Below the pieces are notes generated by a model. It was not told the DNA's origin. It did no database searches and saw only the letters and a list, made by a program, of their open reading frames with translations. Below, piece after piece: positions 1-18,994 of a DNA stretch of 64,000 nt; the first letter of the stretch is position 1, and the number at the start of each line of letters is the position of its first letter. The DNA lies in contig NZ_CP142016.1 of assembly GCF_035666175.1 (NCBI RefSeq), positions 1,116,001 through 1,180,000 on the forward strand, given 5' to 3'. Source of the stretch: Riemerella anatipestifer. GTDB lineage: Bacteria > Bacteroidota > Bacteroidia > Flavobacteriales > Weeksellaceae. The position numbers and the translations under genes are program-made.

Positions 1-88
<88 letters not shown>

Positions 89-1465: not shown

Positions 1466-2548
1466 CTATTTATACTTCCTTTTTAAAAGGTCTAACATTT
1501 CAAAAACACCTTTTTGTGCCTCCGCGGTTCCGCTATTTACCAATATAATATAACCTAAATGCTTTTTTCTATCAATTTGAGCATAGGAAAAAAATGTGCC
1601 ATCTGAACCTGAATGGTCTGAAATCTCTTGAATTTTATCTTGATAATTACCCCAGCCTATAGAATAGTCTTTTTTGGAAGTATATAAGTATTGATAAGTT
1701 TCAGGAGTCAAAATATTTCTTTCCCCAGAAAGCCCCTGTATATTTAATTGTATAAACTTGGAATAATTGTAAATATTCATACTTAAATCTCCCGCTGGTT
1801 CTGCTAAACTCAAATCATAATCGACATTTGGTAAAACTTCAACTTGTTTTCCTCCTTCTAACCAATGCCCTAAAGGTTGATTTTTAGCATTTCTACTAGG
1901 CCAACCCAACCGAAAATCTATCTCTAATTTTGTTTTTAACACTTCTTCTATCAGTTGTTCCCAAGACTTTCCAGAAACTTTTTCAAGCATCATTGCCGCA
2001 ATACTATACCCTGCGTTTGAGTAATTGTAAGTATTTTTGTTTTCTATCGGAGAGAGCCTTAAAACATATTCTCCAAATTTGGTTCTTTTCTGTTGTTTAG
2101 TTCCTTTAAATTTAGGAAGTTTACTATACTCCTCTCCACTAGTAAAAGGCTGAACATTAGCTCTATGGCATAATAAATCTTCTAAAGTTATACTGTGATA
2201 CTTGACATTTGAACTCTTTTTAAACTTTGGAAATAAATCAAAAAACTTGGTTTTCCATTTTATTTTACCTTGTTCTACCAAATATGCAGAAATAAACCCC
2301 GTAATAGCTTTAGTATTAGAACCTAGATGAAATAAATCTTCAAAGGAAGCATTGGGTTTTCCTTTCTTTTCAGTAACTCTGTGATGCCCCCTTACTTTTT
2401 GCACCAATATAGTATCTTTCGTTACAACAGCGAACGCCATTTCGGGAATATCGTATTTTGTCATAATACTATCCGCCTGTCCTTCTAAATTTTGAGCTAA
2501 AAAACTTTCAAAAAATAAAATCAGGGCAATAAATATAATTCTCCACAT
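1466..2548 (-). CDS. Serine hydrolase, beta-lactamase class C / penicillin-binding-protein-like, secreted
   Basis: 360 residues with an N-terminal signal peptide (about residues 1-18). The class C beta-lactamase fold signature is complete: S77-N-T-K80 (SxxK nucleophile and general base), Y176-S-N178, and a late H-S-G motif standing in for the KTG triad. Such proteins may be peptidases or esterases acting on peptidoglycan fragments or D-amino-acid peptides in the periplasm; sequence alone does not separate these from a true beta-lactamase. A TATCTTTG -7 box lies at 2573-2566 on the minus strand, 17 bp before the ATG, with no clear -33 element. The DUF72 gene follows 28 bp downstream. Confidence 0.8.
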   Translation of the reverse strand: MWRIIFIALILFFESFLAQNLEGQADSIMTKYDIPEMAFAVVTKDTILVQKVRGHHRVTEKKGKPNASFEDLFHLGSNTKAITGFISAYLVEQGKIKWKTKFFDLFPKFKKSSNVKYHSITLEDLLCHRANVQPFTSGEEYSKLPKFKGTKQQKRTKFGEYVLRLSPIENKNTYNYSNAGYSIAAMMLEKVSGKSWEQLIEEVLKTKLEIDFRLGWPSRNAKNQPLGHWLEGGKQVEVLPNVDYDLSLAEPAGDLSMNIYNYSKFIQLNIQGLSGERNILTPETYQYLYTSKKDYSIGWGNYQDKIQEISDHSGSDGTFFSYAQIDRKKHLGYIILVNSGTAEAQKGVFEMLDLLKRKYK

Positions 2549-2587
2549 ACTATTGATACTTTGAACAAAGATAGAAAACCTTTAATT

Positions 2588-2622
2588 AAAAAGAAAAACC
2601 ATAGCCCTAAGACTACGGTTTT
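2588..2622 (-). terminator. Terminator of the nrdBA operon
   Basis: On the minus strand AAAACC-g-TAG pairs with CTA-t-GGTTTT around an 8-base loop (stem arms 2622-2613 and 2604-2595), followed by TTTTTCTTTTT. It lies about 40 bp past the nrdA stop. Confidence 0.6.
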
Positions 2623-2659
2623 ATCTTCCTCAACTTTAATTATTACACTCTATATTTAT

Positions 2660-4315
2660 CTATGCTTCGCAACTAGAACAAGTTACAAAATTTACCATCA
2701 ATTCTTTGGACACAGACGAACTTCTCTGATAGTAAAGAGTTTTAACACCTTTCTTCCACGCCTCTATCATCAAGAAGTTAACATCTTTTACTGGCATTGT
2801 GGAAGGAATTTGCAAATTCAAAGATTGTGCTTGGTCTATATACTGCTGTCTTTGAGCCGCTTGACTGATAATTTCCATAGGAGAAATTTCTTTGAAAGTC
2901 TTGAAAACAGCCTTTTCCTCTTCCGTAAGCCCATCTAAATGCTGCACAGAACCATGGTTAAGCATAATGTTTCTCCATGTTTCCTCGTTTTCTAGGCCCT
3001 TCGCTTCCAGCAGTTTTTTAAGGTATTTATTTTTTCTCATAAAATTACCTTTAGCCAAACCTGCTTTATAATAATTTGATGCAAAAGGCTCTATACCTGG
3101 AGAGGTTTGCCCTAAAATAGCCGAACTAGAAGTGGTAGGTGCGATTGCCATCAGCGTGGTATTTCTCATACCGTAACCTTTAAGCAATTCTGGTTCGCCA
3201 TAAATATTAGCTAACTCTTTAGAAGCTGCTTCCGCTTGTTCTTTGATGTGTTTGAATGCTCTAGCATTGAATTGAGTCGCTTCAAAACTTTCAAAAGGAA
3301 TCATATTTTTTTGCAAATACGAATGATACCCTAAAACACCTAGACCTAACGCTCTGTGTTTCATTGCAAAATTTCTAGCTCCTTGTAAATAATAGTTACC
3401 TTCCGTTTTTTCGATAAATTCGGACAATACTGCATCTAAGAAATAAATCGCCAATTTAACCGCATTAGTATCCTTCCACTCATCATAAAGTTCCAAATTC
3501 ATAGAAGAAAGACAACATATAAATGACTCCTCCTGAGTAGATGGCAACATAATTTCTGAACAAAGGTTACTCGCATTAACCAACAACCCTTTATCTTTAT
3601 AAACTTGAGGTTTATTTCTGTTGACATTATCGGTAAAGAAAATATATGGCAACCCTTTCTGCTGTCTGCTTTCTAAAACTTTAGCCCAAATCTTCCTCTT
3701 ATCAATGTCCCCATCTATCATATCTTGCATCCAGTAATCTGGCACGCAAACGCCCGTAAATAGGTTTTGAATAGGGCTACCGATGTCTTTTATCGTCAAA
3801 AACTCCTCTATATCTCCGTGGTCTATATCTAGATAAGCCGCAAACGCCCCTCTTCTTACTCCTCCTTGAGAAACCACATCCATAGCTGTATCAAACAACT
3901 TCATAAAAGAAACTGCCCCAGACGATTTACCGTTATCTGTAACGGCCGTCCCTCTATGACGAAGCTCCCCAAAATAACCAGAAGTACCACCACCTATTTT
4001 GGTTTGCATGATAACTTCTCCCATTTTGTGGGTAATCCCCTCAATACTATCTGGAATATGAACATTGAAACAAGAAATCGGAAGACCTCTCTGCGTTCCC
4101 ATATTCGCCCATACAGGAGACGAAAAGCTAATCCAACCTTTCACAATCATCTCTTCGAAGGCTGGTTGTAACTCTGGTTTATAAAGCCTCTTTGCAGCAG
4201 CCGTAGTAATCCTTTTAATCGCTCCATGCACTGTCTCTCCCTTCAGAAGATAGCCTCTATTGAGCATTTGTTCAGACTCCTCATTTAGCCACCATATATC
4301 TTGTAGTTCTTCCAT
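2660..4315 (-). CDS. nrdA: Ribonucleoside-diphosphate reductase class I, alpha subunit, without ATP-cone
   Basis: 551 residues. It reduces ribonucleoside diphosphates to deoxyribonucleotides together with the NrdB subunit encoded just upstream. Key residues are visible: the disulfide pair in PISCFNVHIPDS and ICCLSSMNLEL, the active-site NLCSEIM (Asn, thiyl-radical Cys, Glu), the radical-transfer tyrosines in LYYQRSSS, and the C-terminal shuttle CSSCEA. The protein begins almost directly at the catalytic domain. The roughly 90-residue N-terminal ATP-cone that gives overall activity control in many alpha subunits is absent, and none is seen in NrdB either. It lies 47 bp downstream of nrdB, in an operon closed by a hairpin at 2588-2622. 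Confidence 0.95.
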   Translation of the reverse strand: MEELQDIWWLNEESEQMLNRGYLLKGETVHGAIKRITTAAAKRLYKPELQPAFEEMIVKGWISFSSPVWANMGTQRGLPISCFNVHIPDSIEGITHKMGEVIMQTKIGGGTSGYFGELRHRGTAVTDNGKSSGAVSFMKLFDTAMDVVSQGGVRRGAFAAYLDIDHGDIEEFLTIKDIGSPIQNLFTGVCVPDYWMQDMIDGDIDKRKIWAKVLESRQQKGLPYIFFTDNVNRNKPQVYKDKGLLVNASNLCSEIMLPSTQEESFICCLSSMNLELYDEWKDTNAVKLAIYFLDAVLSEFIEKTEGNYYLQGARNFAMKHRALGLGVLGYHSYLQKNMIPFESFEATQFNARAFKHIKEQAEAASKELANIYGEPELLKGYGMRNTTLMAIAPTTSSSAILGQTSPGIEPFASNYYKAGLAKGNFMRKNKYLKKLLEAKGLENEETWRNIMLNHGSVQHLDGLTEEEKAVFKTFKEISPMEIISQAAQRQQYIDQAQSLNLQIPSTMPVKDVNFLMIEAWKKGVKTLYYQRSSSVSKELMVNFVTCSSCEA

Positions 4316-4362
4316 TTTGTTTTTCTTGTTTTATTTCTTGCTTTAGATTATCAAAAATTTAT

Positions 4363-5337
4363 CTAAAACAAATCGTTAGCGGTAATACTCTTATCGTGTT
4401 TTGTATAATCTACTGGTCTTTTGGCAAAGAAATCGTCTAATGAGTTAGCAAAAACTTCCTCCTCAAACCATACCATCGGCTTGTATTCTTCCTCTGTAAT
4501 ATTAAACATAGAAGCCATACCAATTCTTTTCAAACTATCGTCTATACGATATTTCATAAAGCTGAGAAGTTGTTTTTTTGATAAATGGTCTAAATCTCCC
4601 ATCTCAAAAATCCAATCTAATATTTCCGCCTCTAGCTCTACCGAGGTTTTAACAATATTATAAATCGCCTCTATATCTTCCTCTTGAAGAAGCTCAGGCT
4701 GTTCTTCCTTTATTTTATTGATGATATAAATCCCTGCATTGGCATGAATTTGCTCATCTACAGAAGTCCACGCAATAATGTTAGATACATTTTTCATATA
4801 GCCCTTAAACCTCGTAAACGAAAGAATAATGGCAAACTGAGAAAACAATGATACATTTTCTATTAAAATACTGAATAATAACAAAGAAGACACATACTCC
4901 TTAGGCGTTGAAGAGTTTGAGTTTTTAAGTACATCGGTTAGAAAATCTATTCTTTTTCTAATAGCAGGATTTTCGATAACATTAAGAAACTCATTGTTAT
5001 ATCCTAAAACTTCAAGTAATCTTGAGTAAGCCTCTGAATGTCTAAACTCACACTCTGCAAAGGTTGCTCCTAATCCGTTAAACTCAGGCTTAGGGAGATG
5101 ATTATAAAGATTACCCCAAAAGGTCTTTACAGACACCTCAATCTGAGCAATTGCTAACAAAGCATTCTTAACTGCATTTTTCTCATGAGGCTCTAGCTGC
5201 GAATGAAAGTCTTGTATATCCGCCGTAAAATCTACCTCTGAATGTACCCAAAAAGACTTATTAATCGCCTCTATATACTGCATTACTTCTGGATACTCAA
5301 AAGGTTTGTAGTTTATTCTTTTCTCAAAAATCCCCAT
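4363..5337 (-). CDS. nrdB: Ribonucleoside-diphosphate reductase class I, beta subunit (probable subclass Id)
   Basis: 324 residues. It houses the dimetal cofactor that starts radical chemistry for NrdA. Metal ligands can be placed at E67, E97, H100, E160, E195 and H198; a tyrosine (Y104) sits where class Ia enzymes have the radical Tyr. The first ligand is Glu rather than the Asp usual in class Ia, and the sequence around FAECEFRHSEAYSRLLE closely resembles what I recall of the Flavobacterium johnsoniae enzyme, the model for Mn-dependent class Id. No nrdI is adjacent, as expected for Id. Assignment to Id is inference; NrdB itself is certain. There is no N-terminal ATP-cone. A 16-bp palindrome upstream (5409-5424) may be an operator. 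Confidence 0.94.
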   Translation of the reverse strand: MGIFEKRINYKPFEYPEVMQYIEAINKSFWVHSEVDFTADIQDFHSQLEPHEKNAVKNALLAIAQIEVSVKTFWGNLYNHLPKPEFNGLGATFAECEFRHSEAYSRLLEVLGYNNEFLNVIENPAIRKRIDFLTDVLKNSNSSTPKEYVSSLLLFSILIENVSLFSQFAIILSFTRFKGYMKNVSNIIAWTSVDEQIHANAGIYIINKIKEEQPELLQEEDIEAIYNIVKTSVELEAEILDWIFEMGDLDHLSKKQLLSFMKYRIDDSLKRIGMASMFNITEEEYKPMVWFEEEVFANSLDDFFAKRPVDYTKHDKSITANDLF

Positions 5338-5646
5338 AATAATTGTTTATTCAGTTTTTTAACTCTTAGTTATTTCTAACAAAGAATAGAATTATATAAC
5401 AATCTAAAAATCAATATATTGATTACACAAAGACTTAACAAAATCCTTTCTACAAAAATAGAAAATGAAAGCCTAAAAATGAAACGAAATATGGATAGAT
5501 TATTTAATCTTTTGGATTCTAATTATATAAGTTTTCCACAATCCTCTATAATCCTATAAATAAGGGCAAAACCACCAATAAACATTTTATAATTAAACAA
5601 AAGATATAAACCTCAATACAAAAAGGAAATGTAATTAAACACCTAT
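5338..5646. other. Intergenic region upstream of nrdB
   Basis: 309 bp, very AT-rich, without a convincing ORF. It must contain the nrdBA promoter and the 3' end of the comF transcript. A possible -7 box for nrdB (TATTTTTG on the minus strand, 5460-5453) has no matching -33 element. Two inverted repeats stand out: AATCAATATATTGATT at 5409-5424 and AGATTA-TT-TAATCT at 5497-5510. Confidence 0.6.
5409..5424. promoter_or_regulatory. NrdR-box-like palindrome before nrdB
   Basis: AATCAATATATTGATT is a perfect 16-bp palindrome whose central ten bases, CAATATATTG, fit the core of the NrdR box (CWATATATWG). NrdR is the common repressor of ribonucleotide reductase genes and normally binds a pair of boxes about 31-32 bp apart. 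I do not see a good second box, and AT-rich DNA yields such palindromes by chance, so this is only a candidate. Confidence 0.35.
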
Positions 5647-6300
5647 TTATTCATCTATTGCCAAAACCAAAACACTCACCTGATTCCCATTTCCTTTTAA
5701 AAGCTCCCAAACCGCTTTACTCATTGTATTTCCTGTGGTATATACATCGTCTATAAGTAAGATGTGTTTACCTTCTATTTTCTCATCTACAGAAAATATA
5801 TTTTGCATCTTTTCTCTATCCAATTTTTGCTTTAAGGCTTGAGGCTTAGAATAGAAATTTCTTTTAAGAAGATAATGAGAATAAGGTATCCTCTGCAACT
5901 GAGATAATGTTTTTGTAAATAAATGCAACTGATTATACCCTCTCTCTCTTTGTTTTTTAGGATGAAGTGGAATATTAGTTAATATATCTATCCCTTGATG
6001 AGATAAATCCATATTTTCAGAAACCCAATGAGCTAACACCTTACCCACACGCTCCATAGAATGGTACTTTAAGGCGTGTATAATATCTTGAGAAAGTTCT
6101 TTTTTCTCGTACTTCATCAAACTAAAAGCCTTATTTACTGGAAATTTAAGAACAACTTTTTGATAAAAATCCCCTTTTCCTCCAAAATCATTGTAGGTAA
6201 AATTGATATGAGACTTACACGCCCAGCAAACGATTTCATCAGAGGAAATAATGAGATTACACTTTAGGCATCTATTGGGCAGAAAAAAATCTAAAAACAT
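5647..6300 (-). CDS. comF: ComF family phosphoribosyltransferase-like protein
   Basis: About 217 residues. An N-terminal zinc-ribbon (CLKC ... CWAC) is followed by a type I phosphoribosyltransferase fold with the PRPP-binding loop ILLIDDVYTTGNT near the C-terminus. ComF proteins support DNA uptake in naturally competent bacteria, probably on the inner face of the membrane during single-strand import. A second competence gene, dprA, lies 4 kb away, which fits the known natural competence of Riemerella. The frame is open to a TTG at 6309, but the ATG at 6298-6300 (MFLDFFLPNRC) is preferred because the family starts there. It lies just downstream of tRNA-Cys but beyond a terminator. Confidence 0.85.
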   Translation of the reverse strand: MFLDFFLPNRCLKCNLIISSDEIVCWACKSHINFTYNDFGGKGDFYQKVVLKFPVNKAFSLMKYEKKELSQDIIHALKYHSMERVGKVLAHWVSENMDLSHQGIDILTNIPLHPKKQRERGYNQLHLFTKTLSQLQRIPYSHYLLKRNFYSKPQALKQKLDREKMQNIFSVDEKIEGKHILLIDDVYTTGNTMSKAVWELLKGNGNQVSVLVLAIDE

Positions 6301-6388: not shown

Positions 6389-6459
6389 AGGTTCCGAGCG
6401 GATTCGAACCGCTGTACAAGGTTTTGCAGACCTCTGCCTAGCCGCTCGGCCACGGAACC
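6389..6459 (-). tRNA. tRNA-Cys (GCA)
   Basis: The minus strand folds into a 71-nt cloverleaf. The acceptor arm GGTTCCG pairs with CGGAACC, the D arm contains GGCCGAGCGGCTAGGC, the anticodon loop reads CTGCAAA with anticodon GCA, and the T arm is GCGG-TTCGAAT-CCGC. U73 is the discriminator base, an identity element for cysteine tRNA. CCA is not encoded. A TATATTTG -7 box lies just upstream (6480-6473). Confidence 0.97.
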
Positions 6460-12511: not shown

Positions 12512-13702
12512 CTATGGTTCAAAATCCAATGGTAAAAGCTCCGAAAGATTACTTCTTGCCCACCCTTCCTCAAATACAAGTTCACTAGGATTGGAATAAT
12601 TGCCATCTGAATAAACTTCAAAGCTAAGCCCTCTACAATCTAATATGTTATTTTTGGATACAGGCATTTCTGTTTTTTGTATTTGTTTTTTGTGCACTGT
12701 ATAGAAATACTTTTTATAATTAACCCCAAGTAAATCCTTAAACTCCAAAAAAACTCTATTTTCACTATTTTTCCTAAATTTATCTGATAATATATTTCTT
12801 TCTATTATGGCAGAGTAGAACATAGGCTCTTCTTCCTTCCTTCTTGCAATATCTTCTATATGAGGAGGGTATTTATTAAATACAATGACTGAATCTTTGG
12901 AAATCTTTTTCCTAAAATCATCAATATAAGTGCGATAAACTTTCAGTTCTTCCGACGACGGATATTTTTCATTACGCTTCCTTACAATCCAATCCACAGA
13001 AAAACCCTCTTCAGATAATCTGTCTTGATAAAGAGCTCTGAAAAAATGTAAGGAACTACCACAATAAGCATTAAGCCTTTCTGTTTGCCACTTTAATTGC
13101 TTATGAGAAGAGCCTTTCATAGGACTAAAAAAAGAAGTTCCAAGATACTTCAAACTATTATCGGAAAGGTTCAGTTCAAATTCCAACAAGTTATAATTTA
13201 CAACATATCCCAATTTTTCGTTACTAATAATAAGAGGTGCTTTTGCACGAGCCTTAAGAACATGCTCCTCTCTATCGTATGCCAATTGTATATCCTTCGG
13301 GTTTTTAACATAAACCATCTCCCTATCATAACCCAAGAGAGTATTAAGAAACTTTTCGATATAACGCTTATACACCTTATCTGTGTATGCCAATAGTTTG
13401 ACCTCTGGAATTTCCGTTTCTTTTTCTAATTTAATTTCTAATGTTTGGCTATACAATTCTTTAATGGGTATTATTTTTGAGGAAAACCCTTTTTTTTCAA
13501 CGATAAGGTTTCCTGTCTTCGCCTTCACACCTGACAAGTAAAATTCCCCATCTTGATTAGATTGTGTTTTATATTGAGTTCCATCTATATAAATCACAGC
13601 CCCTGACAATGGAGTTTCTCGAAAATCCTTAATGTAACCTTTAATACTTTGAGCGTTTATTAAAGTAATTCTCAATAAAACTAACAGAAAAATCACTCTC
13701 AT
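12512..13702 (-). CDS. Secreted carboxypeptidase-regulatory-like domain protein
   Basis: 396 residues with a signal peptide (about 1-17). A CarboxypepD_reg-like beta-sandwich follows (about 19-95: IKGYIKDFRETPLSGAVIYIDGT ... GEFYLSGVKAK), as in many Bacteroidota surface and TonB-linked proteins. The remaining 300 residues have no recognisable catalytic motif but resemble a widespread flavobacterial family with this same N-terminal domain. It probably acts in the periplasm or at the outer membrane. It lies 11 bp downstream of the Lrp-type regulator and 23 bp upstream of ruvC. Function unknown. Confidence 0.75.
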   Translation of the reverse strand: MRVIFLLVLLRITLINAQSIKGYIKDFRETPLSGAVIYIDGTQYKTQSNQDGEFYLSGVKAKTGNLIVEKKGFSSKIIPIKELYSQTLEIKLEKETEIPEVKLLAYTDKVYKRYIEKFLNTLLGYDREMVYVKNPKDIQLAYDREEHVLKARAKAPLIISNEKLGYVVNYNLLEFELNLSDNSLKYLGTSFFSPMKGSSHKQLKWQTERLNAYCGSSLHFFRALYQDRLSEEGFSVDWIVRKRNEKYPSSEELKVYRTYIDDFRKKISKDSVIVFNKYPPHIEDIARRKEEEPMFYSAIIERNILSDKFRKNSENRVFLEFKDLLGVNYKKYFYTVHKKQIQKTEMPVSKNNILDCRGLSFEVYSDGNYSNPSELVFEEGWARSNLSELLPLDFEP

Positions 13703-13713
13703 AGAAATAAACT

Positions 13714-14193
13714 TTAGATTGTGGTTAATGTTATAACATTCATCACTCGGTTATCATTCTTAATGTATTTGAAAATAAAGCTACTCTTAACACTATCTAT
13801 AATATCTAATTTTGATATTTTTCTTAGGATAAACTCTTCATAATGGTGCAAATCTCTTAGCAAAAGTTTCATAATAACATCATAATCCCCAGAAGTAAAT
13901 GCCGCCTCCGTGACTTCCTCAAAAGACAATATTTCTTCTTTAAACTTATTAAAAATCTCTTCCTGATGCTTAATCAATTTAATTTGCATATAGGTAGTAA
14001 AGCCATACCCTAACTTTTCAGCATCTACAATAGCTGTATAGCCTTTAATATAACCATTAGCCTCTAATTTCTTTATCCTATCATGCACAGGTGTTACCGA
14101 CAAACTTACTTTAGCCGCTATTTCTTTCACACTTTGGCTACTATCTTCGACCAATTCTCTAAGAATACTAAAATCAACTTGATCTAACTTCAT
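13714..14193 (-). CDS. Lrp/AsnC family transcriptional regulator
   Basis: About 159 residues, standard length. It has an N-terminal winged helix-turn-helix (LDQVDFSILRELVEDSSQSVKEIAAKVSLS ... RIKKLEANGYIKGY) and a C-terminal RAM effector domain (TSGDYDVIMKLLL). The family senses amino acids and controls their uptake and metabolism. The frame is open upstream to 14259, but the ATG at 14191-14193 is the right start: it begins the conserved domain, and a TATATTTG -7 box (14223-14216) lies between the two candidates. It is divergent from a susC-susD pair with an attenuator-like leader, which suggests the regulator may act on that uptake system. Confidence 0.93.
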   Translation of the reverse strand: MKLDQVDFSILRELVEDSSQSVKEIAAKVSLSVTPVHDRIKKLEANGYIKGYTAIVDAEKLGYGFTTYMQIKLIKHQEEIFNKFKEEILSFEEVTEAAFTSGDYDVIMKLLLRDLHHYEEFILRKISKLDIIDSVKSSFIFKYIKNDNRVMNVITLTTI

Positions 14194-14215
14194 TATTTTT
14201 TTCGGTTTTATCCAG

Positions 14216-14223
14216 CAAATATA
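14216..14223 (-). promoter_or_regulatory. -7 box of the lrp-type gene
   Basis: TATATTTG on the minus strand, 22 bp before the chosen ATG. No good -33 element is visible at the usual distance. Confidence 0.45.
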
Positions 14224-14316
14224 CAAACAAAAAGAAAAATAAACTAAAAAACACAACAAAAATAAATTTAATATCTTTTATTAAATAATAATTAGGTTTT
14301 TTATTTCGACATAATA

Positions 14317-14324
14317 TAACTTTG
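14317..14324 (+). promoter_or_regulatory. -7 box for the susCD leader transcript
   Basis: TAACTTTG fits TAnnTTTG. The -33 region (around 14293) is poor, so activation by a regulator such as the divergent Lrp protein is possible. Predicted start near 14331, 18 bases before a short leader ORF and about 200 bases before susC. Confidence 0.45.
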
Positions 14325-14348
14325 CAGTGTAAATAATCAGTTATAATA

Positions 14349-14423
14349 ATGTTATACAACACTCACCAACTTCTTTTCATTATGATTATGATGAAGAGAA
14401 GACAAACGGCATTATTTGTGTGA
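14349..14423 (+). CDS. Putative leader peptide of the susCD operon
   Basis: A 24-codon ORF, ATG at 14349 and TGA at 14421, lies just after a -7 box and before a strong intrinsic terminator, the classical layout of an attenuator. The peptide reads MLYNTHQLLFIMIMMKRRQT then ALFV, with three Met among codons 12-15. Those codons fall in a 14-bp stem (14370-14383 with 14388-14401, 4-base loop). A ribosome stalled there would open this hairpin. That the ORF is translated is inference. Confidence 0.45.
   Translation: MLYNTHQLLFIMIMMKRRQTALFV
14370..14401 (+). promoter_or_regulatory. Stem-loop inside the leader ORF
   Basis: CTTCTTTTCATTAT pairs with ATGATGAAGAGAAG (two G-U pairs) around the loop GATT, giving a 14-bp hairpin. 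It covers codons 8-18 of the leader ORF, including its Met-rich segment, and could act as a pause or anti-antiterminator hairpin. Confidence 0.5.
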
Positions 14424-14460
14424 GAAGTTTTTAGTTGATATAATATTTCAGTTCCAACGG

Positions 14461-14500
14461 AAGGCTTTAAACACAATGTTTAAAGCCTTTTATTTTTGAG
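14461..14500 (+). terminator. Attenuator-type intrinsic terminator before susC
   Basis: AAGGCTTTAAACA pairs perfectly with TGTTTAAAGCCTT around a 3-base loop, followed by TTATTTTTG. It lies between the predicted promoter and the susC start (29 bp later), so susCD expression requires read-through. An upstream GTTTTTAG (14428-14435) is partly complementary to the 5' arm and might compete with it. Confidence 0.8.
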
Positions 14501-14528
14501 TTAAAAAAAATAAAAAATTATACAACTT

Positions 14529-17471
14529 ATGAAAAAGAAACTACTAAATGCAGGAGCATTAGGTCTGTTTTTAGTGCTTGGAAATAATATACAAGCACAG
14601 GTAAAAGATAGCACAAAAACGAGAGCTATCGAAGAAGTAGTAATAGTAGCCTATGGTAAACAAAAATCCAAAGCTATAGTGGGCTCGGTATCCAGCGTAG
14701 GAAAAGAGGTCCTCTCTACACAACAAACAACTAATGTAGCTACTGCCATACAAGGTAGCGTACCTGGTGTTAATATCATTGGTTCGGCTGACCCTAGCGT
14801 ATCACCAACTATAAGAGTGAGAGGGATTGGCTCTATAAATGCAAGTTCAGACCCACTTATCATTGTAGATGGAGCTCAATATACGGGTAGCTTATCTAAT
14901 ATTTCACAAGAAGAAATAGAAAGCATCAGTGTTCTTAAAGACGGTTCTGCCACCTCTCTATATGGTTCTAGAGGTGCGAATGGTGTAGTTCTAATAACTA
15001 CCAAAAAGGGACGAAAAGGAAGACCAAGAGTAACTTTACAAACTTCTCTAGGATTTGCCTCTCCTGTAAACGAGTTTCATCCTCTTGTAGATAATACAAA
15101 ATACTTACAATACACTTGGGAGTCTCTAAGAAACACCTATGTATTTAAAGACAAACTATCTTACGCAGACGCAGGAGCTAAGGCCGCTTCTTTGATAATC
15201 CCTACATTGCAGTACAATCCATACAATGTTAAAAATCCTATAGATGCTAACGGAAACTTGGTAAGTGGAGCTCAATTACTATGGAATACCGATTGGGCAA
15301 GCCACTTAATAAACCGAAGTGCCGAAAGACAAGAAAGCACAGCTACTGTATCAGGAGGAACTGAACAAAGCACCTACTTCTTAAGTCTAAACTACTTAAA
15401 ACAAGAGAATTCTGTAAAGAATAGTAACTTCGAAAGAATTGCCACTAGATTGAATTTAGAATCTAAGGTACAACCTTGGCTTAGCGTAGGGCTTAATACT
15501 TCCTTTGTGTCTAATAGCAGAAATACACCTCCATTAGATGGTCCTCGCTATGGTTCTCCTATATCTAGTATATACACCATATCTTCTATCTATCCTCTTT
15601 ATCAAAGAGACGAAAATGGTAATCTAATATACGATGAAAACGGTAATCTTTCTTATGATTATGGAGCTGGTAGCCCTAGTACCATTAACTCTCAAAGACC
15701 TTTTACTAGAAACGCCAATCCTGTAGGTTCGTTGGTTTACAATAATTACCGATATGTTACCAATACACTTACCTTAAATGGGTTCGCAAAAATTGATTTC
15801 ACCAAAGACCTTTCATTCCGCTCTAATTATTCATTTGAACAAAACCAAAGGAATAATAAATCATTTGACAATGGGTTATATGGCGAATATGCTCCTCAAA
15901 GTGGTCTTATAGGATACAATAGAGATAATTTTTCTACTAGAAACTTTATTAACTCCCTAAACTACAACACTAGATTAGGAGAAGGGCACAACTTATCCGC
16001 AGACGCTATCGCAGAACTATTTGAAACAACTTATGATTTTATGTATGCTTCTGGTACAGGGCTATTCCCTGGCATCCAAGTTCTTGGTGGAGCCAATACT
16101 CCTAACAGTAGTAGCGGAAATATTCTAAAACAAAGACTAGTAGGCTTATTAGGAAGGGTAAACTACAACTATAAAGAAAAGTACTTTATAGAAGGTTCAT
16201 TCCGTAGAGATGGTTCTAGTGTATTTAGTAGAGATACCAGATGGGGGAATTTCTTTTCCGTTGGAGGAGCTTACATTGTGAGCGAAGAAAACTTTTTAAA
16301 AGGAAACAAAACTCTAAGTTTCCTAAAACTGAAGTCTTCCTACGGAGAACTGGGGAACAATAACTTCAATGTAGCAAAGTACTCTAACGTAATAGAGTAC
16401 GATTTCTTCCCTTACCTAGCTTCGTACAGTACAGGATATTCTGTGGGAGATAAGATAGGGATACTACTTTCATCTCCAAAAGATGCCAATATAAAGTGGG
16501 AAAAAACTGCATCTTTTAATGCAGGGATAGAGTTAGGCTTATTCCAAAACCGAGTGAACATCAATGTAGATTATTACGACAAGCACTCCGTAGATTTAAT
16601 AGGTCCTCTTGTAACAGCAGGTTCCACAGGAGCTACTTCTATAACTTCCAATATCGGAAAGCTAAAAAATTACGGTTGGGAATTTGCCATCAATACTAAA
16701 AACATCAGAACCGAAAACTTCAGATGGGACACTGGACTCAATTTCTCGTTTGATAGAAATAAAATCTTAGCTTTAAGTAATGATGACAAACCTCAGCTTA
16801 AAGATACTAAAAGATGGGAAGTCGGGAAATCTCTTTTTGAGTTTTATATGAGAGAATACGCAGGTGTAAACCCTGATAATGGAAATCCTCTGTGGTACAA
16901 AGATGTTACTGATGCTAATGGCAACATAACCAAAGTAACTACAGAAAAATATTCAGATGCTAGTCTCTATTATCTGAATAAGAGTTCAATCCCTTGGGTA
17001 GTAGGTGGTTTTAATAACTATTTTAAATACAAAAACTTTGACCTCAACGCTCTAATAAACTTTAGCTTCGGAAGCTACCTATACGACGACTCTTACGCAA
17101 GACTAATGAGCGGAAACTTTAACGGAAATTCCAAAAGCGTTGATTTAGAAAGAAGATGGCAAAAACCTGGTGATATTACAGATGTTCCTAGGCTAAGTTC
17201 CACTTCATTAGAAGAGAGCAGTTTGTCATCTCGTTTCTTATTCAAGAATGATTATGTAAGGCTAAAAGCTCTTAATATAGGTTATAATTTTGATAAACAA
17301 GATATTGAAAAAATAGGATTGAAAAATTTAAGACTATTCTTACAAGCAGACAACCTGTTTACTTGGCAAACGAGCAAAAACATAGACCCAGAACAAGCCT
17401 TAAGTGGTCTGACATACGACAGAGCTTTTAGTCTTAAAACAATTTCTTTCGGTCTTAAATTAGAACTTTAA
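14529..17471 (+). CDS. SusC/RagA family TonB-linked outer membrane protein
   Basis: 980 residues with a signal peptide ending near residue 23 (NNIQAQ). A TonB-box-like EEVVIVAYG at about 35-43 leads directly into the plug domain (STQQTTNVATAIQGSVPGVNI, IRVRGIGSIN, VLKDGSATSLYGSRGANGVVLITTKKG). The rest is the 22-strand barrel, ending in the aromatic-rich FSLKTISFGLKLEL. The CarboxypepD_reg-like domain found at the N-terminus of most SusC proteins is absent. With the SusD lipoprotein it should import oligomers such as glycans or peptides. No carbohydrate-active enzyme is nearby, and an Lrp-type regulator is, so a peptide substrate is conceivable but unproven. Confidence 0.96.
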   Translation: MKKKLLNAGALGLFLVLGNNIQAQVKDSTKTRAIEEVVIVAYGKQKSKAIVGSVSSVGKEVLSTQQTTNVATAIQGSVPGVNIIGSADPSVSPTIRVRGIGSINASSDPLIIVDGAQYTGSLSNISQEEIESISVLKDGSATSLYGSRGANGVVLITTKKGRKGRPRVTLQTSLGFASPVNEFHPLVDNTKYLQYTWESLRNTYVFKDKLSYADAGAKAASLIIPTLQYNPYNVKNPIDANGNLVSGAQLLWNTDWASHLINRSAERQESTATVSGGTEQSTYFLSLNYLKQENSVKNSNFERIATRLNLESKVQPWLSVGLNTSFVSNSRNTPPLDGPRYGSPISSIYTISSIYPLYQRDENGNLIYDENGNLSYDYGAGSPSTINSQRPFTRNANPVGSLVYNNYRYVTNTLTLNGFAKIDFTKDLSFRSNYSFEQNQRNNKSFDNGLYGEYAPQSGLIGYNRDNFSTRNFINSLNYNTRLGEGHNLSADAIAELFETTYDFMYASGTGLFPGIQVLGGANTPNSSSGNILKQRLVGLLGRVNYNYKEKYFIEGSFRRDGSSVFSRDTRWGNFFSVGGAYIVSEENFLKGNKTLSFLKLKSSYGELGNNNFNVAKYSNVIEYDFFPYLASYSTGYSVGDKIGILLSSPKDANIKWEKTASFNAGIELGLFQNRVNINVDYYDKHSVDLIGPLVTAGSTGATSITSNIGKLKNYGWEFAINTKNIRTENFRWDTGLNFSFDRNKILALSNDDKPQLKDTKRWEVGKSLFEFYMREYAGVNPDNGNPLWYKDVTDANGNITKVTTEKYSDASLYYLNKSSIPWVVGGFNNYFKYKNFDLNALINFSFGSYLYDDSYARLMSGNFNGNSKSVDLERRWQKPGDITDVPRLSSTSLEESSLSSRFLFKNDYVRLKALNIGYNFDKQDIEKIGLKNLRLFLQADNLFTWQTSKNIDPEQALSGLTYDRAFSLKTISFGLKLEL

Positions 17472-17483
17472 AAAAATAAAAAA

Positions 17484-18908
17484 ATGAATCTATACAAAAT
17501 AAAAACTATAGCTGTTGCAACTTTATTATTAGCCGCAACCTCTTGTCAAAGATATTTAGACGAACCTCAGCCCACAGACGAAATTAGTCTAAATTTAGCA
17601 TTCTCTAGCTTAGACAATGCAGAAGCCAGCCTTACGGGTATCACAAGATTATTAAGAAGTGATACTGATGTACTAGGGCAAAGCACAACCAACTTAGGAA
17701 GTGTCTATTTCGCTAGAACTGTAAGAGGAGAAGATTTTATCGTTCCCAACAGCTGGTACTCTACAGATTATCAAAACACATACAGACTATCCACATCGCG
17801 CAGAACCGCTTTTACATGGAATTATTTTTATAAAATTATCCGCCAGTGTAATGAGTTTATAACAGGGGTTAATCAAAGTGGTAACATTAGTGCGACACAA
17901 AAAAACTCTCTTATAGCTAGAGCTAAGGTGCTACGTGCATTAGCTTATTTTGAAGTTGTACAAGATTTTCAGCTAGGTTACAAAGTTGCTAAAAACCAAC
18001 CTGCAGTACCTATCTACGACAAATATACCAAAGATGCCAATCCTCTTAGTACAACAGAAGAGGTGTATAAATTTATTACTAACGACCTAGAAACTGCCAT
18101 ACCAGAGCTTTCTTATAGCAGAGCTTCAAAAGCTTTTGTTAATAAGCAAGTAGCCTACGCCATAGCTGCTAGAGTTTACCAAGTAAAAGAAGATTGGCAG
18201 AAAGCGGCAGAATATGCTAAACTAGCTTACGGAGGAGATGTTAATACCTCTCTTAACTCTGCAGAATATGCCGAAGGGTTTAAAAAACTAGACTCCCACG
18301 AATGGATATTGGGCTACGGACAACAAGTTGGACAGTCCATCTACTGGACTCAAGCCCCACACTCCTTCACGGATTTATCGCCAATCAATGATGGTTACAG
18401 CAATGTCTATGTAAGTAAATCTTTGTACGATTTGTTCTCTGATACTGATGTTAGAAAATTATTTGACGTAAACCCATCATCAAACAATTATACTAAATAC
18501 AGTACCTATAAATTTACATTCAACAAAGATACTTCAGCGTGTCCTTACATCAGAACTTCGGAAATGATTTTGATAGAAGCCGAAGCTAAATACAGACTAG
18601 GGCAAGAAAGCCAAGCTAAGGATTTACTATTCCAATTACAGCAAAACAGAGACCCTAAAGCCGTAAAATCTGCTAATACAGGAGAAGCTCTCTTTAATGA
18701 AATTCTTACGGAAAGAAGAAAGGAACTATACGGTGAAATAGGTGTAGAAGTCTATGATGCTAGAAGATTGTCTCTGCCTTTAAAAAGGTCTTCGTGGCAC
18801 CCTGTATCGCTATCTTTTGAGGCAAATGATAAGAAAATTATCTACCAGTATCCACAACAAGAGATAGACGCTAACCCTCATCTATCAACTAACATAAATA
18901 GTGATTGA
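17484..18908 (+). CDS. RagB/SusD family nutrient-binding lipoprotein
   Basis: 474 residues with a lipoprotein signal (LLLAATSCQRYLDEPQPTDE; lipid-bearing Cys at about 22). The SusD fold is shown by the N-terminal NLAFSSLDNAEASLTGI segment, TPR-like helices in the middle (LIARAKVLRALAYFEVVQDF, IAARVYQVKEDWQKAAEYA) and the C-terminal ILTERRKELYGEIGVEVYDARR block. It caps the SusC barrel 12 bp upstream and captures the substrate at the cell surface. A terminator follows the stop, so susC-susD is a two-gene unit. Confidence 0.95.
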   Translation: MNLYKIKTIAVATLLLAATSCQRYLDEPQPTDEISLNLAFSSLDNAEASLTGITRLLRSDTDVLGQSTTNLGSVYFARTVRGEDFIVPNSWYSTDYQNTYRLSTSRRTAFTWNYFYKIIRQCNEFITGVNQSGNISATQKNSLIARAKVLRALAYFEVVQDFQLGYKVAKNQPAVPIYDKYTKDANPLSTTEEVYKFITNDLETAIPELSYSRASKAFVNKQVAYAIAARVYQVKEDWQKAAEYAKLAYGGDVNTSLNSAEYAEGFKKLDSHEWILGYGQQVGQSIYWTQAPHSFTDLSPINDGYSNVYVSKSLYDLFSDTDVRKLFDVNPSSNNYTKYSTYKFTFNKDTSACPYIRTSEMILIEAEAKYRLGQESQAKDLLFQLQQNRDPKAVKSANTGEALFNEILTERRKELYGEIGVEVYDARRLSLPLKRSSWHPVSLSFEANDKKIIYQYPQQEIDANPHLSTNINSD

Positions 18909-18955
18909 GAAAACTAAAAAAGAATAAGTTTTTCATTTTTCTTCATATTAACCCG

Positions 18956-18994
18956 AAATCGGAGAGTTCTTAACAGGCTCTCTGATTTTTTTTA
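18956..18994 (+). terminator. Terminator of susCD
   Basis: AAATCGGAGAG pairs with CTCTCTGATTT (11 bp, one G-U) around an 11-base loop, followed by a run of T residues. Confidence 0.85.

Follow-up and report, generated by a model that had tools for sequence, protein, structure and literature searches.

The window, the whole stretch of 64,000 nucleotides that was analysed, carries a susC-susD pair whose products belong to the SusC and SusD families above cut-off (Table 1). A leader with a promoter box, a short open reading frame (ORF), and an intrinsic terminator precedes the pair, and an Lrp/AsnC-type regulator gene diverges from it. The -7 box, the 24-codon ORF, the 14-bp hairpin, and the terminator ahead of susC had all been described in a first-pass annotation of this DNA, and each was recovered at the site claimed. 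Transcription probably starts near 14330. The terminator stem (14459-14491) comprises 15 pairs and a 3-nt loop and is followed by an interrupted T tract. Because the upstream gene is divergent, this forward-strand terminator cannot end an upstream transcript and could act only on entry into susC.

Table 1. Features of the susC leader and flanking genes (positions within the window)
Feature	Position	Strand	Supporting observation
-7 box TAACTTTG (TAnnTTTG, Bacteroidetes-type); leader promoter	14317-14324	+	TAnnTTTG in 6/6 orthologous loci
Leader ORF, 24 codons, MLYNTHQLLFIMIMMKRRQTALFV	14349-14423	+	counterpart ORF with Ile/Met core in each of the other five species
Ile/Met codon block I-M-I-M-M, proposed stall codons	14379-14393	+	codon spacing to antiterminator arm
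14-bp hairpin over Ile/Met codons, possible pause hairpin	14370-14401	+	-14.0 kcal/mol
Antiterminator left arm (predicted): leader ORF end, its stop codon and 9 nt	14416-14432	+	duplex with 14460-14476
Intrinsic terminator; 5' arm and loop (14460-14476) form the predicted antiterminator right arm	14459-14498	+	terminator at same place in 6/6 loci
susC, 980 aa, SusC/RagA TonB-linked outer-membrane protein	14529-17471	+	TIGR04056, 671 bits
susD, 474 aa, SusD/RagB lipoprotein	17484-18908	+	PF14322 and PF07980
Terminator-like hairpin closing the susC-susD operon	18955-18989	+	hairpin prediction
Divergent Lrp/AsnC-type regulator	13714-14193	-	PF01037 and PF13412; adjoins leader in 5/6 species

To place the leader in a comparative context, 320 genomes of the family were searched for orthologues of SusC, with about 67% identity or more taken as a clear orthologue. 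Five further genomes qualified: G001 (Riemerella anatipestifer CCUG25054), G003 (R. columbina), G004, G005, and G017. Together with the window's own genome (G000), they give six orthologous loci, five in Riemerella-genus genomes and one, that of G017, in another genus. The box, the leader ORF, and the terminator are kept in all six, so the lack of conservation in relatives that the first-pass annotation named as a refutation does not apply. The box sits 17-37 nt upstream of an ORF of 24-35 codons with an Ile/Met core, and the terminator ends 29-39 nt before susC. Written out in full, the leader peptides are MLYNTINKSHHRFLFIMIMMKRRQTALFV in G004, MLYNTINKNHHLFLFIMTMMKRKQTALFV in G001, MTTFNTILKHKNTPITFIIMMCKGIKLCDKRSERL in G003, MLTPRFIMISMMIAHYIKMIMWHTGYREHRSNA in G005, and MNFIKNTNSISIHTIICMGKEICIIN in G017, and the terminator sequences of G003, G005, and G017 differ from those of the window's group (G000, G004, and G001).

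Within that group of three closest species, which are not independent of each other, the leader ORFs differ by an in-frame indel of 15 nt (five codons), and the last nine codons are invariant except for one R/K change. All 14 pairs of the hairpin over the Ile/Met codons are kept there, one of them varying on both sides (C-G, U-G, and U-A); in G003, G005, and G017, no such hairpin was seen at the corresponding position. A further pairing is possible between the start region of the ORF (14346-14361) and a segment after its stop codon (14435-14449); it is kept in G000, G004, and G001 despite a 2-nt indel and may keep the untranslated leader off.

The layout is confined to these orthologues among the loci compared. 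None of 19 SusC loci of the family with about 46-51% identity has such an ORF-plus-terminator arrangement directly upstream of susC, and no such leader precedes susC at other loci of the genome to which the window belongs (L123 and L128-L130). In a wider collection of 79 SusC loci, the layout is present in two, both Riemerella orthologues, and not in the other 77, although in three of these a terminator-like hairpin lies close to the presumed start, with no leader ORF of a comparable kind. Scans for the same leader elsewhere used the codon pattern FI[IM]MM across 316 genomes of the family and, within the window's genome, ATGATKATGATG. The former pattern is commoner in the family than its backward control, with inspected matches scattered and many inside long frames; among the loci inspected (about 30 family matches and all 9 in the window's genome), only the present one had the layout.

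AT-rich DNA yields many weak hairpins and short ORFs, and terminator-like sites are indeed somewhat numerous here (12 against 7.2 expected in 12 kb), so a chance hairpin beside a chance ORF deserves consideration. Such a coincidence is hardly credible, however, given the folding energy of the 206-nt leader (-49.1 kcal/mol; shuffles, -29.1 ± 3.6; z = -5.6; 0/200 as low) and the recurrence of the layout in 6/6 orthologues and in none of the distant homologues. It is also improbable that the terminator merely damps susC constitutively, or that susC has a separate promoter after the terminator, with the short ORF non-regulatory in either case. A second TAnnTTTG match, TATTTTTG at 14491-14498, does lie inside the T tract of the window, 30 nt before susC; this match is missing in the other five species, whereas the box before the ORF is present in 6/6, and the ORF is retained together with its Ile/Met core. 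The match at 14491-14498 is probably due to chance, though it might be a second promoter.

All six loci allow pairing between the end of the leader ORF and the 5' arm and loop of the terminator. In the window's group, this predicted antiterminator joins UUGUGU (14416-14421) and GAAGUUUUU (14424-14432) to GAAGGCUUU (14460-14468) and ACACAA (14471-14476), with a duplex energy of -15.0 kcal/mol against -7.0 ± 2.1 for shuffles (p = 0.002). The first-pass annotation had offered a partial pairing of GTTTTTAG with the terminator arm as a weak candidate; the predicted pairing of 14416-14432 with 14460-14476 is stronger than the one suggested. G005 reaches a comparable result with a different sequence, GAGCAU and GAAGU pairing with ACUUC and AUGCUC (-13.6 kcal/mol, p = 0.002). 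The counterpart in G017 is weak (p = 0.10), and that in G003 is no better than chance (p = 0.73). Arms and stall codons were picked after the sequences had been viewed, which makes all of these p-values optimistic.

Folding was also computed with a ribosome placed on the leader. A ribosome stalled at the Met codons leaves the RNA beyond it, as far as the terminator loop, to fold as the antiterminator; the pairing probability of the 5' arm is then 0.47-0.86, compared with 0.03-0.38 when the ribosome is at the stop codon. The terminator of the window has a probability of 0.95 in untranslated RNA, 0.47 with the ribosome stalled, and 0.96 with the ribosome at the stop codon. At equilibrium, the complete RNA of G003, G005, and G017 favours the terminator in every ribosome state; thus, the antiterminator would need to form first in these three.

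We consider it likely, on the strength of these sequence comparisons and predicted folds, that the susC-susD operon is governed by ribosome-mediated transcription attenuation keyed to the charging of tRNA-Met and/or tRNA-Ile. Once transcription has begun, the leader ORF would be translated at once. With ample charged tRNA at the Ile/Met block, the ribosome would reach the stop codon and mask the left arm of the antiterminator, so that the terminator forms ahead of susC. A stall at the Met (or Ile) codons would instead leave the left arm free to pair with the 5' arm and loop of the terminator, and RNA polymerase would continue into susC-susD. Leader RNA that is not translated would be expected to terminate as well. 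That the attenuator works in the cell is something we infer from sequence.

The short conserved I-M core of the leader ORF and the terminator behind it would also suit small-molecule sensing by a nascent arrest peptide in the manner of TnaC. Residues flanking the core vary widely among G000, G003, G005, and G017, however, and RNA pairing in the antiterminator accounts for the invariant tail seen in the close species; we therefore rate an arrest peptide as a rather remote prospect, a little below that of a terminator without regulatory input from the ORF.

Attenuation by an amino acid had been proposed in the first-pass annotation with Met as the principal signal and Ile, Leu, or Phe in reserve. 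Conservation, codon placement, and antiterminator pairing support this for Met (or Ile) and do not support Leu or Phe: in G017, Leu codons are missing ahead of the antiterminator arm, and the position of Phe codons is not constant. A Met codon lies 22-24 nt upstream of the arm in 6/6 loci, the tightest placement of all residues. By permutation over four lineages, the placement of Met has P = 0.0026 (0.043 for any residue). Both residues are enriched in the leaders of the four lineages (Met, 11/114, P = 6e-5; Ile, 20/114, P = 3e-4; background frequencies assumed).

The same attenuator might sense isoleucine alone, with the Met codons merely following, and we regard this as a minority possibility that nonetheless merits weight. 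The enrichment of Ile is in its favour, and when the three close species count as one, Ile codons are placed just as tightly as Met codons. In the six species, by contrast, Ile codons range over 28-34 nt upstream of the arm, a wider span than that of Met, and G001 has Thr at the position of the second Ile of its group. Metabolism speaks more for Ile: IlvC (PF01450) and IlvD (PF00920) are absent from 6/6 genomes and present in 14/14 control genomes, so branched-chain amino acids are probably required, whereas MetE and MetH are both absent only in G003 and G005 of the six (they are also lost in G002). Both are present in G000, G001, and G004, and G017 has MetH together with a MetE fragment at a contig end. 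Moreover, Met shortage would limit initiation of the leader too, which argues for Ile or a double signal. The sensed signal would thus be Met and/or Ile, Met having the tighter placement and Ile the more uniform auxotrophy. In its most specific form, with a Met-codon (possibly Met and Ile) attenuator switching on the scavenging of outside nutrients through SusCD according to tRNA charging, the proposal is tentative, although better placed than sensing of isoleucine alone.

RagA, part of the RagAB system of Porphyromonas gingivalis, is a peptide importer. It is also the best solved relative of the present SusC (E = 8e-89), and an importer of the RagAB-like SusCD type taking up peptides or amino acids is therefore plausible by analogy, in line with the inference of the first-pass annotation; the resemblance of the present SusD to RagB is weak (E = 5e-7), which sets the pair apart from RagAB. 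The divergent Lrp/AsnC-type regulator is a possible second input, as the first-pass annotation had it. Its gene is absent next to the leader in G005, so the leader is independent of that neighbour.

Leader-peptide attenuators are known for the amino-acid operons trp, his, thr, ilvGMEDA, and phe. In Actinobacteria, they have been described for trp and leuS (PMC1262725), and in the reports consulted, leader peptides precede genes for amino-acid biosynthesis or tRNA synthetases (PMC1262725; PMC9723704). The present leader shares with these classic attenuators a short ORF containing codons for the putative sensed residue, a predicted antiterminator and a terminator that exclude each other, and a predicted preference for the terminator when a ribosome is at the stop codon. 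It differs from them in its target, an outer-membrane SusCD importer rather than biosynthesis or a tRNA synthetase, in its Met/Ile core codons, and in a predicted antiterminator that uses the ORF end, the stop codon, and part of the terminator loop. In Flavobacterium psychrophilum, a member of the same class of bacteria, leader peptides have been proposed in structured 5' regions reported before amino-acid biosynthesis operons; the main text of that report names no SusC target (PMC9723704).

Control of susC at the RNA level has a parallel in the DonS family of Bacteroides, which differs in consisting of cis-antisense RNAs, without a leader ORF or terminator, that act in glycan systems (PMC7366714). 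The class of mechanism proposed here is thus known, and its SusCD target, as well as Met if that is the signal, appears to be new: an incomplete survey of the openly accessible literature turned up no report of Met-codon attenuation or of attenuation of SusC/TonB genes. As far as is known, control of SusCD importers lies mostly with dedicated transcription regulators, and antisense RNAs act on some of them. If the proposal is correct, a leader peptide couples such an importer directly to tRNA charging in bacteria without branched-chain amino-acid synthesis, and would itself point to an amino acid or peptide as the substrate of the importer. Consisting of a single ORF, antiterminator, and terminator, the arrangement would be an easily tested system.

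Methionine genes are cited as targets of S-box riboswitches (PMC1262725), and the window's genome carries one. A SAM riboswitch (RF00162, 81 bits) lies upstream of methionine synthase at L203:1948-5814 (G000:C1 about 2407447-2411313), where the start and the main part of the gene occupy adjoining frames (2117-3127 and 3127-5814) and a metF-like gene follows. A Met leader before metH was considered and rejected, as the riboswitch occupies that site, and none was seen before metE. The riboswitch shares with the present leader a methionine-related signal and premature control in the leader; unlike the latter, it binds S-adenosylmethionine without translation and belongs to an Rfam family. Were the Met reading to hold, a switch responding to tRNA charging would coexist in one genome with a SAM riboswitch on the methionine synthesis operon. 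Rfam 15 covariance models gave no match to 13000-15500 up to E = 5; elsewhere in the window, Rfam matches fall at its edge, on the end of a 16S rRNA gene (1-88, reverse strand), and on a tRNA gene at 6389-6459 (reverse strand).
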